This document shows, piece by piece, positions 33,320 through 52,832 of a stretch of 64,000 bases of DNA. Below the pieces are notes generated by a model. The model saw only the letters and a program-made list of their open reading frames with translations. It searched no databases and was not told the origin of the DNA. Source of the DNA: Jiangella alba (GTDB taxonomy: Bacteria; Actinomycetota; Actinomycetes; Jiangellales; Jiangellaceae); the NCBI RefSeq assembly GCF_900106035.1, contig NZ_FNUC01000003.1:2721501-2785500 (forward strand). Direction: 5' to 3'. The position numbers and the translations under genes are program-made. Within the stretch, counting starts at the first letter, position 1, and each line of letters opens with the position of its first letter.

Positions 33320-33336
33320 TCACCCCCGGTGGGTGA
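33320..33336. promoter_or_regulatory. Candidate operator TCACCC-N5-GGGTGA, copy 1
   Basis: TCACCCCCGGTGGGTGA lies between divergent membrane-protein genes (starts 33290 and 33408). First of eight 17-bp copies found from 33 to 53 kb. Confidence 0.6.
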
Positions 33337-33407
33337 TGCCGCTGCCGCCGCGCCGCCGGAAAAGTGGGAAACCGGGGACCTCCCCGCGTCAGCTCGCAGG
33401 AGGAGTC

Positions 33408-33833
33408 ATGACCGATTTCCGCACCTCGCCGACCGAGACGCCCAGGCCGGAGCCGTCCGGCTGGGCGACCGGCGGCGTCATCTTCGCGGCCACGATGATG
33501 GTCCTCATCGGCGTCTTCCAGGCGCTCGAGGGCCTGGCGGCGATCATCGACGACGAGTTCTTCGTCGTCCTGCCCAATTACACGTTCGACCTCGACACCA
33601 CCGCGTGGGGCTGGGTGCACCTGATCCTCGGCATCGTCATCGCGCTGGCCGGGTTCTTCCTGTTCACCGGCAGTGCCGTGGCCGGCGGGGTGGCGATCGG
33701 GCTCGCCGGACTGAGCGCGATCGCCAACTTCTTCTTCATCCCGTACTACCCGTTCTGGTCGCTGCTGATCATCGCGATCGACATCTTCGTGATCTGGGCG
33801 ATCGCGAGGTCCGGCGTCCTCAGCGGGAGGTAG
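33408..33833 (+). CDS. DUF7144-like four-helix membrane protein
   Basis: A 141-residue membrane protein with four segments: GGVIFAATMMVLIGVFQALE, WGWVHLILGIVIALAGFFLF, VAGGVAIGLAGLSAIANFFF and YPFWSLLIIAIDIFVIWAIA. The loop FFVVLPNYTFDLDTTAWGWVH is typical of this actinobacterial family, whose role is unknown. AGGAGG lies 6 nt before the ATG. A copy of the 17-bp palindrome stands 71 bp upstream. Confidence 0.82.
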   Translation: MTDFRTSPTETPRPEPSGWATGGVIFAATMMVLIGVFQALEGLAAIIDDEFFVVLPNYTFDLDTTAWGWVHLILGIVIALAGFFLFTGSAVAGGVAIGLAGLSAIANFFFIPYYPFWSLLIIAIDIFVIWAIARSGVLSGR

Positions 33834-33834
33834 C

Positions 33835-34926
33835 TCAGCGCAGCAGGACCGGCCGCGAGCAGCCGAACTCGGCCACCCAGCCCTCGACCTCGGTGTCGCC
33901 GGAGACGACGAGGCCGCGGCCGCCGGGCAGCACGCCGTCGTCGACGATGCTGCGCAGGCCGGTCCAGGCGTCGAGGTCGTCGTGGCCGTGGATCTCCGAC
34001 TGCACCGGCCAGTCCGGCACCCCGGCGAGCGCGGTCGTGGCGGCTTCCGCCGCGGCCGCGTCGCCGGCGTCGGTGGCCCGGATCCATCCCTCGATCCAGG
34101 CGCACCGGGCCTCGGACTCGACGGTGTACGCCAGCGCGTGCCGGGTGGTGACGCCGCCGGACGGGGTGACCCGCAGGCCGTCGGGCAGTGCGGCGCCGCC
34201 GAGCATCGCGTCGGCCGTCGCGACGATGTCCTCGGACCGGACGATGTCGCCGGGCAGCGCGGACAGCCAGGTCGCCGCGTCCACCTGCGTCACCGCGGCG
34301 AGCAGGTCCGCGAACTCGGCGTCGTCCATCGGCGAGCGCCAGGTCATCAGCTCCACGAAGGCGTCGCCCTGCTCCCAGACGGCGTTCCAGTCGCCGTCGC
34401 CGTACGAGAACACCGTCGCCCGGTGGCCGGCGACGACCGCCTCGCTGACGGTGTCGGCCGCGCCCTCGCGGCTGGCGATGGCGGCCGGCGCGTCGGCCGA
34501 GGTGCTCCACGAGAGATGCGCCTCGCTGGCGCCGTCGGTGAACCGCATGGTCCCGTCGCCGGGATCGAGTTCGTCGGCGCTCTCGACCCGCCAGTCCGGC
34601 GCGTCGACGAGCAGCCGCGGCGTCTGGTCGGCCAGCGCGATCGCCTCGCTCGCCCACACCACCGGGTCGTCGCCCTGCGTGCTGACCAGGGCGGTGACGC
34701 CGACGGCTGCGGCCGCGGCGACGGCGCCCAGGGTGGCCAGCCGGCGGACCCGGCGGCGCGGCCGGCGAGCCGGCGCGGGCGCGCGGCCGGCCGGGAGCAC
34801 CGGCTCCGGCGCGGTGCGGATCAGGCTCATCAGCTCCGCCTCGGCGGCGCTGCCGGTCAGGGTGACGATCTCCTCGTCGCTGTGCTGCGCGGCCCGGCGG
34901 ACCAGCGCGGTCATGGGGTCGGTCAC
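33835..34926 (-). CDS. Membrane-anchored protein coupled to an ECF sigma factor
   Basis: A 363-residue protein with a short cytosolic N-terminus (1-60, basic [11 protein letters not shown] just before the membrane), one membrane segment (about 62-81) and a large extracytoplasmic domain. Its GTG overlaps the sigma-factor stop (GTGA), the classic layout of an anti-sigma factor. I do not see the HXXXCXXC zinc motif, so it may be a non-ZAS anti-sigma or a CU044_5270-like lipoprotein partner. Ends 1 bp after the DUF7144-like stop, convergent. Confidence 0.75.
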   Translation of the reverse strand: MTDPMTALVRRAAQHSDEEIVTLTGSAAEAELMSLIRTAPEPVLPAGRAPAPARRPRRRVRRLATLGAVAAAAAVGVTALVSTQGDDPVVWASEAIALADQTPRLLVDAPDWRVESADELDPGDGTMRFTDGASEAHLSWSTSADAPAAIASREGAADTVSEAVVAGHRATVFSYGDGDWNAVWEQGDAFVELMTWRSPMDDAEFADLLAAVTQVDAATWLSALPGDIVRSEDIVATADAMLGGAALPDGLRVTPSGGVTTRHALAYTVESEARCAWIEGWIRATDAGDAAAAEAATTALAGVPDWPVQSEIHGHDDLDAWTGLRSIVDDGVLPGGRGLVVSGDTEVEGWVAEFGCSRPVLLR

Positions 34927-51496: not shown

Positions 51497-52002
51497 GTGA
51501 CAGCAACGTCGAGGTCTTCGTGGCCGCCTTCGGCACCGAGGACGAGGCCGGCCAGGCCCTGAAGGACTTCCGCGCGATGGCCCGCGAGGGCTCCATCGAC
51601 CTCATCGACGCCGCCGTCGTGGTCCGCCGCGCCGACGGCAAGGTGACGTTCCAGGAGACCACCGACCCCGGCGGCAAGACGTGGGCCAAGCGCGGCGCCG
51701 TCGCGGGCGGCATCGTCGGCCTCATCTTCCCGCCCGGGCTGCTGGTGTCGGCGGCGGTCGGCGCGGCCGGCGGCGGCATCTGGGGCAAGGTGCGCGACAA
51801 GGGCTTCCAGGACGACGACCTGCGCTCCATCGGCGACAGCCTCGAGCCCGGCACGTCCGCCATCATCGCCGTCGCCGAGGACCGGATGATCGAGCGGCTG
51901 CAGGCCGGGCTGGAGGGCTACCGCAACATCGCGCGGCACGCCGTCAGCGCCGAGGCCGCGGCCGCCGTCATCGCCGCACCGGAGGAGGACTCACCCTCCT
52001 GA
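51493..52002 (+). CDS. DUF1269 membrane-associated protein, second copy
   Basis: A 169-residue protein: VEVFVAAFGTEDEAGQALKD, a glycine-rich membrane hairpin (KRGAVAGGIVGLIFPPGLLV, AAVGAAGGGIWGK) and the family end EPGTSAIIAVAEDRMIERLQ. It is the same family as the protein at 36488. Its last 12 bp overlap the end of the CYTH-domain gene tail to tail. Confidence 0.85.
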   Translation: MSDSNVEVFVAAFGTEDEAGQALKDFRAMAREGSIDLIDAAVVVRRADGKVTFQETTDPGGKTWAKRGAVAGGIVGLIFPPGLLVSAAVGAAGGGIWGKVRDKGFQDDDLRSIGDSLEPGTSAIIAVAEDRMIERLQAGLEGYRNIARHAVSAEAAAAVIAAPEEDSPS

Positions 52003-52767
52003 CGAGAGCTGCTCGGAGAAGTACGTCAGCGCCGTCCGGGTCTTCGTCTGCTGCACGCCGCCGAGGTCGATGCCGCGCTCGCCGAGGAAGGCCCGCGACT
52101 CCGCGGCGACGTTGAGCGCCTCGCCGGGCAGGCACTTGGTCGACAGCTCCAGGATGCGGCCGCCGTCCGGGTAGAACCACAGCTCGGCGACCAGGCGGCG
52201 GCCGTACTCCCCGGGCGAGAACTTGAGCTTCATGATCGGGATCGGCCCGAGCGCGCTCAGCTCGTCCAGCTCCAGCCCTTCGGGCGCGTGCGCGGCGAAC
52301 AGGTCGCGCTGCTGCTTCGTGAACAGCTTGCGGATCGGCCGCCGCCCGGCCAGCACGTCCATGACGTGCGCGTTGTCGACCGGGGCCTTGAGCCGTCCGG
52401 ACGCCACGAACGAGCCGCCCGGCATCGCGTCGACCTCAACCCCGAAGTCCGGCGACTGCCGCAGCGACGGCGACAGCCGTTTCGGCTCCACCGGGCGCAG
52501 CTTCACGACCGCGTCGCCGGGCCGGCGCTGCACCCGTCGCGCGCGGACCACCACGCCGGCGCGGTCCAGCGCGAGGTCCGGCGTGTCGAAGAACACGACC
52601 TGCCGGATCTGCGCCTCCAGCGGGTCCATCCCCAGCGCCGCGACCGCGGATCGCTGGTCCCCGTCCGGCACACTCAGTTTCAGCTCGACGGAATCGGCCT
52701 CCTTGAACAGCGTGAGCAGCTCCCCCAGCCGCTTGCTGGACATGATCGGCAGCGCCACCTCGGTCAT
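51991..52767 (-). CDS. CYTH/VTC-like phosphate-binding domain protein
   Basis: A 258-residue protein that looks like a CYTH tunnel protein: SVELKLSVPDGD (the EXEXK-like start, here ELK), FFDTPDLALDRAGVVVRARR, DAVVKLRPVEPKRLSP, and late IMKLKFSPGEYGRRLVAELW. CYTH enzymes act on triphosphates, and VTC relatives on polyphosphate. I choose ATG 52767 with GGGGGTGG upstream; a GTG at 52794 would add nine residues. Operator copy 8 lies 48 bp upstream. Confidence 0.75.
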   Translation of the reverse strand: MTEVALPIMSSKRLGELLTLFKEADSVELKLSVPDGDQRSAVAALGMDPLEAQIRQVVFFDTPDLALDRAGVVVRARRVQRRPGDAVVKLRPVEPKRLSPSLRQSPDFGVEVDAMPGGSFVASGRLKAPVDNAHVMDVLAGRRPIRKLFTKQQRDLFAAHAPEGLELDELSALGPIPIMKLKFSPGEYGRRLVAELWFYPDGGRILELSTKCLPGEALNVAAESRAFLGERGIDLGGVQQTKTRTALTYFSEQLSSGG

Positions 52768-52815
52768 CCGGACCACCCCCTGGTGGATCGTCACCCCGCC
52801 CGGCCGGGTCCGGCC

Positions 52816-52832
52816 CCACCCGTTCCGGGTGA
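52816..52832. promoter_or_regulatory. Candidate operator, degenerate copy 8
   Basis: CCACCCGTTCCGGGTGA differs from the palindrome consensus by the first base. It lies between the CYTH gene (start 52767) and the SnoaL-like gene, just left of the SoxR-type box. Confidence 0.5.

Follow-up and report, generated by a model that had tools for sequence, protein, structure and literature searches.

A 17-bp palindrome, TCACCC-N5-GGGTGA, stands before eight genes or gene groups in a 64-kb window of the Jiangella alba genome (the whole stretch analysed, G000:C3:2721501-2785500), and the eight copies are very probably real promoter switches. We propose that they are read by a MalT-like LuxR protein (LAL), encoded among them at 46463-49183, whose binding is predicted from sequence comparisons. 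It is highly likely that dimers of such LAL activators bind each palindrome at the −35 position and switch on a regulon. The sites, their promoter geometry, their co-inheritance with the LAL and their conservation in relatives were established computationally.

An earlier, sequence-only reading of the window had listed eight copies, exact or with one changed base, at 33320, 39396, 41126, 41443, 46442, 49216, 50084 and 52816. All eight were recovered, six of them exact and two with one mismatch (39396, TCACCT; 52816, CCACCC). It had seen no copy elsewhere in the 64 kb, in agreement with our search, where the single further match at up to two mismatches lies at 9015 and has two. In the whole genome (7.68 Mb), 15 exact copies were found and none of the reversed control; when the spacer was varied from N3 to N8, the total was 18, that is the 15 N5 copies, two N3 and one N4. 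These genome-wide counts come from pattern searches at zero or one mismatch, not from a weight matrix, and leave matches with at least two mismatches uncounted. Six of the 15 exact copies are packed into the 17-kb stretch 33320-50100.

Every one of the 15 exact sites is placed 15-110 bp before a start codon, a position expected by chance for about 8.6% (estimated from random positions in the window, 89% of which is coding), and the palindrome is thus not equally common inside genes. Two of the 15 overlap called open reading frames: the L006 site overlaps the 3' end of the upstream gene, and the frame over the L002 site is probably spurious. In the window, the distances from the eight sites, in the order given above, to the called start of the gene that each one faces are 71, 65, 27, 56, 90, 67, 35 and 21 bp, gene starts being provisional as delivered by a simple caller. 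The range of 27-90 bp reported earlier was therefore essentially right, except that 52816 stands 21 bp from the gene it faces. The one copy described as not intergenic, 39396, does lie within the 3' end of a SulP gene.

The DNA downstream of the sites was aligned on the gene-facing side, as prompted by the published spacing of the MalT sites of Actinoplanes. In 78 of the 95 sites aligned in this way, a −10-like hexamer, NANNNT, begins at +23 or +24 (43/51 in Jiangellaceae and 35/44 in distant loci), compared with 20-25% on the non-gene side and about 3% at other offsets. Although this offset was picked on the pooled set, each subset shows it separately and it fits the published geometry. With the −10 element at −12 to −7, the palindrome therefore ends near −35. 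Distances between site and start codon peak at 35-36 bp (10/95), as leaderless transcripts would give, and the palindrome would thus overlap the −35 region, about 34 nucleotides before a transcriptional start site predicted from sequence. These features amount to a testable promoter rule, TCAYCC-N5-GGRTGA-N22-23-NANNNT, by which several little-characterised gene families throughout Actinomycetota are linked to a family of regulators.

At every site of the window the −10-like element is found on one side only, and each site therefore has a direction. Site 52816 faces the minus-strand gene 51991-52794, and not the DUF4440 gene at 52877, because of this geometry. Site 49216 points away from the LAL gene in 11/11 orthologous loci; since none of the 11 has a −10 on the LAL-facing side, we rejected the idea that the window LAL activates its own gene. 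Across sites, and between orthologs, the arms are invariant whereas spacers and flanks vary. This variation, the near absence of control patterns and the fixed, oriented −10 leave only a negligible chance of a mere repeat element or sequence bias with no regulatory role, a view that could draw on the two copies, 41126 and 41443, that are identical on the plus strand. The identity of this pair had been pointed out earlier and holds on that strand, but not in the promoter sense, where the two belong to opposite promoters with the spacers GAACG and CGTTC. Since these spacers differ, we judged the identity to be probably due to chance and did not retain a recent duplication.

The proposed regulator, which the sequence-only reading had not named, combines an AAA_16-like STAND NTPase domain, a TPR_MalT region and a C-terminal GerE helix-turn-helix (HTH) according to Pfam. 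A PDB search with a profile of the protein and 15 homologs returned MalT as top match (8bob, 2.5e-80), and it is 87-90% identical to named Jiangella records. The genome holds two further LAL genes, L177 (G000:C3 ~1786500) and L180/L014 (G000:C3 ~2979000). A promoter-like one-mismatch site is located 88 bp upstream of the second LAL (L177), which suggests cross- or autoregulation. The LacI gene next to L001 was discarded as a candidate regulator, being a single case.

The association of the palindrome with LAL genes extends well beyond Jiangella. LAL loci were collected from named genomes on the sole basis of protein similarity, and every perfect 6-5-6 palindrome in these 78 loci was counted. 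TCACCC ranks first with 65 copies in 33 loci, the runner-up having 22; with other spacer lengths, its arms occur only 0-2 times. With Jiangellaceae left out, TCACCC retains 46 copies in 29/74 loci, compared with 0-2 for 29 letter permutations. The broader pattern TCAYCC-N5-GGRTGA yields 95 sites in 52/69 distant full-length LAL loci, and 0-2 for spacer, reversed and substituted controls. Both half-site bases and mixtures of the two occur across the loci, which span Nitriliruptorales, Streptomyces, Dactylosporangium, Actinoplanes, Gordonia, Rhodococcus, Lentzea, Amycolatopsis, Ornithinimicrobium and others; a comparison by eye of HTH residues with the C/T choice in the half-site gave no clean pattern. 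The site is not limited to one clade, because the 57 of 74 LALs with a site inside their locus are scattered over the LAL tree.

Regulator and sites are also inherited together. Among 60 relatives, all 17 genomes with at least four sites have a LAL match at E < 1e-20, and none of the 29 genomes without such a match reaches four (Fisher p 8e-7, kinship ignored). In the family, genomes with a LAL ortholog have 6 (G016), 11 (G018) and 12 (G020) sites, whereas those without have 0 (G012, G013 and G015), 1 (G017) or 2 (G021). One congener (G003) has neither the LAL ortholog nor any site, and is devoid of DUF7144 and DUF6325 genes as well. The idea of a single regulon, put forward in the sequence-only reading, is thus borne out by sites before paralogs genome-wide, by the fixed promoter geometry, by the recurrence of sites around LAL orthologs and homologs in relatives, and by this joint absence.

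The arms alone would also fit a different GerE-type regulator, such as a BldM-like atypical response regulator. The Streptomyces BldM Group I consensus, TCACcCgnncGgGTGA, has identical TCACCC/GGGTGA arms bound by a dimer with a GerE-type HTH (PMC4125116). However, BldM sites have an N4 spacer (16 bp) and developmental targets, whereas the sites described here are N5 (17 bp), with 15 N5 copies against one N4 in the genome and 65 against two in the LAL loci. The sites moreover concentrate near LAL genes, and G003, which lacks the LAL ortholog, has none of them. A BldM-like binder is accordingly quite improbable, and spacer length separates LAL (N5) from BldM (N4) sites, a simple case of GerE-type proteins told apart by spacer length alone.

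Several observations weigh against the LAL as the regulator of these sites. The half-site is shared with other GerE-type regulators, BldM for instance. The window LAL scored 231.9 bits against the NCBIfam MalT equivalog NF003420, below the cut-off of 537. All three LAL genes of the genome have neighbouring sites, which makes the pairing of LAL to site ambiguous. In relatives, G019 has a 49% identical ortholog with a diverged HTH and only one exact site, and G016 has the LAL and six sites but neither DUF7144 nor DUF6325.

The regulon had been presented as undescribed, and this applies only in part, because a system of the same plan is known from Actinoplanes sp. SE50/110. There, MalT (ACSP50_3915) controls a regulon, MRLGR, through the motif TCATCC-5 nucleotides-GGATGA at −35, which ends 34.4 nucleotides before the transcriptional start site (Droste et al. 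2020, PMC7567727). The two systems share a MalT-like LuxR-type regulator within the cluster, a 6-5-6 palindrome over the −35, many uncharacterised, membrane and transport genes, and a scattered gene order. They differ by one base per arm, GGGTGA here and GGATGA there, and by their targets, which are sulfatases, SulP, DUF7144, DUF6325 and DUF1269 here and amino-acid metabolism there. The two half-site versions are bridged by an Actinoplanes aureus LAL locus (L143), in which mixed TCATCC/GGGTGA sites precede a class-II glutamine amidotransferase, an annotation also present in MRLGR. The Actinoplanes regulon is partly conserved in Micromonosporaceae (PMC7567727) and has been published only for that family, whereas the loci reported here come from Jiangellaceae, Pseudonocardiaceae, Streptomyces, Gordonia, Ornithinimicrobium, Nitriliruptorales and others. 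Literature searches on the palindrome letters and on the target families returned nothing relevant, and one on DUF7144 found no paper among those searched.

The Actinoplanes data also bear on the sign of regulation. A role of the LAL as repressor or dual regulator was considered, as the Streptomyces coelicolor LAL SCO6993 is reported as acting negatively (PMC9628970). Nevertheless, the palindrome fills the −35, with only a weak −10 (NANNNT) remaining, and deletion of Actinoplanes malT lowered target transcription (PMC7567727), which makes repression very unlikely.

A carbon-source regulon responding to maltose or maltotriose, as in E. coli, instead of stress, would be in line with the induction of the Actinoplanes regulon on maltose (PMC7567727) and with a GH15/trehalase-like gene behind a Lentzea site. 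The E. coli protein has the same domain architecture and a box at about −35, and GGGTGAGG matches GGATGAGG at 7/8 positions, the box being GGGGA(T/G)GAGG as cited in PMC7567727. However, the boxes are repeated in E. coli, whereas a single fixed palindrome is used here, and no maltose or maltodextrin genes were found among the first genes behind exact or promoter-like one-mismatch sites. In Actinoplanes itself, malT deletion left the maltose genes unaffected (PMC7567727), and the targets found here are sulfatases, SulP, HdeD, DUF7144, MscS and glutamate decarboxylase. We thus regard a maltose regulon as unlikely.

In the mechanism that we favour, LAL activation, each palindrome would be the docking site for a dimer of a MalT-like LAL (STAND ATPase, TPR sensor and C-terminal GerE HTH), of which the gene 46463-49183 would encode the cluster-resident member. 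The site would substitute for a −35 element, with its 3' end at about −35, a degenerate −10 (NANNNT) 22-23 bp further on and transcription starting about 35 bp past the palindrome. Activated by its ligand, the LAL would recruit RNA polymerase, as MalT does in E. coli and Actinoplanes, and would switch on about 20 promoters, those of SulP, arylsulfatase-DUF1269-FGE, SfLAP, DUF7144, DUF6325, SHOCT and AI-2E/MscS and, by way of weaker sites, those of glutamate decarboxylase and the second LAL.

The labels SulP, sulfatase-DUF1269-FGE, DUF6325 and DUF7144 given to the window genes agree with Pfam; the label CYTH-like for 51991-52794 was not confirmed, this gene having no Pfam or NCBIfam match. Exact sites outside the window mostly precede paralogs of window genes, for example DUF7144 (L003, L004 minus side, L013 and L014), and all five DUF7144 and both DUF6325 genes of the genome identified by Pfam adjoin an exact site. 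Further genes behind exact sites encode SulP (L004), a sulfatase (L005), SpoIIAA-like then DUF1269 (L001), PLDc_N-SHOCT (L002) and DUF1254/1214 (L006), and AI-2E and MscS genes flank L015. Promoter-like one-mismatch sites precede the second LAL and a LURP-one-related gene (L173), and others lie at L176:2001 and L180:1501. Another such site, TCACCC/GGATGA with the −10 TAGCGT, lies 34 bp upstream of the start of a glutamate decarboxylase gene (L184:93-1466, TIGR01788). No −10 accompanies the one-mismatch site of a third sulfatase (L191).

The same families recur outside Jiangellaceae. The 39 first genes behind promoter-like sites include DUF308/HdeD (8), DUF1269 (5), DUF7144 (4), PLDc_N-SHOCT (4), sulfatase (3), alkyl-sulfatase (2) and SfLAP (1), counts that are not independent, several rows being close relatives (Lentzea, Nitriliruptoraceae). 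For 39 other genes of the same loci, these target families were absent from the 25 families listed, and only one family appears twice. Homologs of the 66-amino-acid protein of the window, which itself has no match in Pfam or NCBIfam, stand behind sites in Occultella, Sphaerisporangium and Kribbella.

We lean towards a LAL regulon widespread in actinobacteria, with a 6-5-6 palindrome at −35 and reshuffled stress and envelope genes (DUF7144, HdeD/DUF308, DUF1269, DUF6325, PLDc_N-SHOCT, aryl- and alkyl-sulfatases, SulP and the unnamed 66-amino-acid family), which would respond to a non-maltose signal, be gained or lost as a module and have been described only in its Micromonosporaceae version. 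A regulon known from one family would then be extended to many orders, and as this switch recurs across Actinomycetota together with its regulator family and its little-understood targets, many "unknown" genes could be assigned to one regulon. Its physiology can be given only tentatively as envelope, acid or sulfate-ester stress. The presence of sulfatases with their activating enzyme, anion transporters, HdeD, a mechanosensitive channel and glutamate decarboxylase would point to acid, osmotic or envelope stress accompanied by the turnover of sulfate esters; the "envelope, sulfate or general stress" proposed earlier fits a predicted target list of sulfatases, SulP, HdeD/DUF308, MscS and glutamate decarboxylase. 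Both the signal sensed by these LALs and what the co-regulated sulfatases do thereby become directly accessible to experiment.

Table 1. Putative operators, −10-like elements and associated genes of the window, followed by related genes behind LAL sites in other loci.
Feature	Position	Strand	Remarks
Putative operator TCACCCCCGGTGGGTGA	33320..33336	+	Exact; faces DUF7144 gene; −10 on this side only
−10-like AAAAGT	33360..33365	+	+24 from 33320 site
DUF7144 target gene	33408..33833	+	Pfam 4.5e-42
FGE gene	35581-36504		After DUF1269; Pfam
DUF1269 gene	36488-36979		After arylsulfatase; Pfam
Arylsulfatase target gene	37009..39330	−	Pfam
−10-like GACGAT	39367..39372	−	+24 from 39396 site
Putative operator TCACCTTCTCCGGGTGA	39396..39412	−	One mismatch; within SulP 3' end; faces sulfatase 37009-39330
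SulP transporter with STAS domain, target gene	39365..41098	−	Pfam
−10-like GACGAT	41097..41102	−	+24 from 41126 site
Putative operator	41126..41142	−	Exact; faces SulP 39365-41098
Putative operator	41443..41459	+	Exact; faces SfLAP/GAP gene 41516-42193
−10-like CACCAT	41483..41488	+	+24 from 41443 site
SfLAP (sulfolipid-1-addressing-like) target gene	41516..42193	+	Pfam
Second SulP-STAS transporter	42190..43773	+	Pfam; 4-bp overlap with SfLAP gene
DUF6325 target gene	45941..46351	−	Pfam
−10-like CAGTGT	46414..46419	−	+23 from 46442 site
Putative operator	46442..46458	−	Exact; faces DUF6325 gene 45941-46351
Proposed regulator, LAL, 906 amino acids	46463..49183	−	Pfam, NCBIfam, PDB profile; mid-cluster
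Putative operator	49216..49232	+	Exact; faces 66-amino-acid gene 49300-49500; LAL-facing side without −10
−10-like GATGGT	49256..49261	+	+24 from 49216 site
66-amino-acid protein gene (MRYEFLV...)	49300..49500	+	Unnamed family
DUF6069 gene	49520-50023		Follows 66-amino-acid gene
Putative operator	50084..50100	+	Exact; faces DUF6325 gene 50136-50567, leaderless, 35 bp
−10-like AAGGCT	50123..50128	+	+23 from 50084 site
DUF6325 target gene	50136..50567	+	Pfam
SHOCT gene	50581-50904		Follows DUF6325 gene; Pfam
Target gene, "CYTH-like" label unconfirmed	51991..52794	−	
−10-like GACGAT	52787..52792	−	+24 from 52816 site, this side only
Putative operator CCACCCGTTCCGGGTGA	52816..52832	−	One mismatch; faces 51991-52794
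66-89-amino-acid family homologs	L158:3682-3882, L161:3958-4158, L080:4375-4575, L127:16954-17163, L166:3628-3882, L120:13813-14082		
Alkyl sulfatases behind LAL sites	L160:13603-15495, L087:6615-8501, L089:11144-12994, L137:4183-6078		

The arylsulfatase, DUF1269 and FGE genes probably form one operon, judging from their close spacing on the same strand. Two gene starts were probably called too far upstream: the SulP gene facing 41126 would begin at the ATG 41089 and be leaderless, and not at 41098, and gene 51991-52794 would begin at the ATG 52767. An ECF-type sigma factor gene (34923-35504) and then an unassigned 363-amino-acid gene (33835-34926), with no site of their own, lie between the DUF7144 gene and FGE.

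Of the exact sites in the genome, 14/15 are carried by contig C3 (3.3 Mb) and 1/15 by C4 (3.7 Mb), which places most of the regulon in a single part of the genome. Two identical one-mismatch sites (TCACCCCCGGCGGGAGA) at L179:1501 and L179:1686, 185 bp apart and with no called gene nearby, are possibly a repeat. Members of the 66-89-amino-acid family, with the signature Y-E-F/L-x-V ... G-x-x-x-D ... VVEMRxLPD and no Pfam or NCBIfam match, recur in distant genera, where they come immediately after LAL sites. SDS-type alkyl sulfatases (Alkyl_sulf_dimr or a similar N-terminal sequence) follow LAL sites in several genera, in keeping with a sulfate-ester theme. Finally, a congener (L158, G008:C1:6242000-6261999) contains a second LAL (~38% identical) surrounded by a second cluster of six exact sites, along with SulP, AI-2E, MscS-like, DUF7144 and 66-amino-acid family genes.

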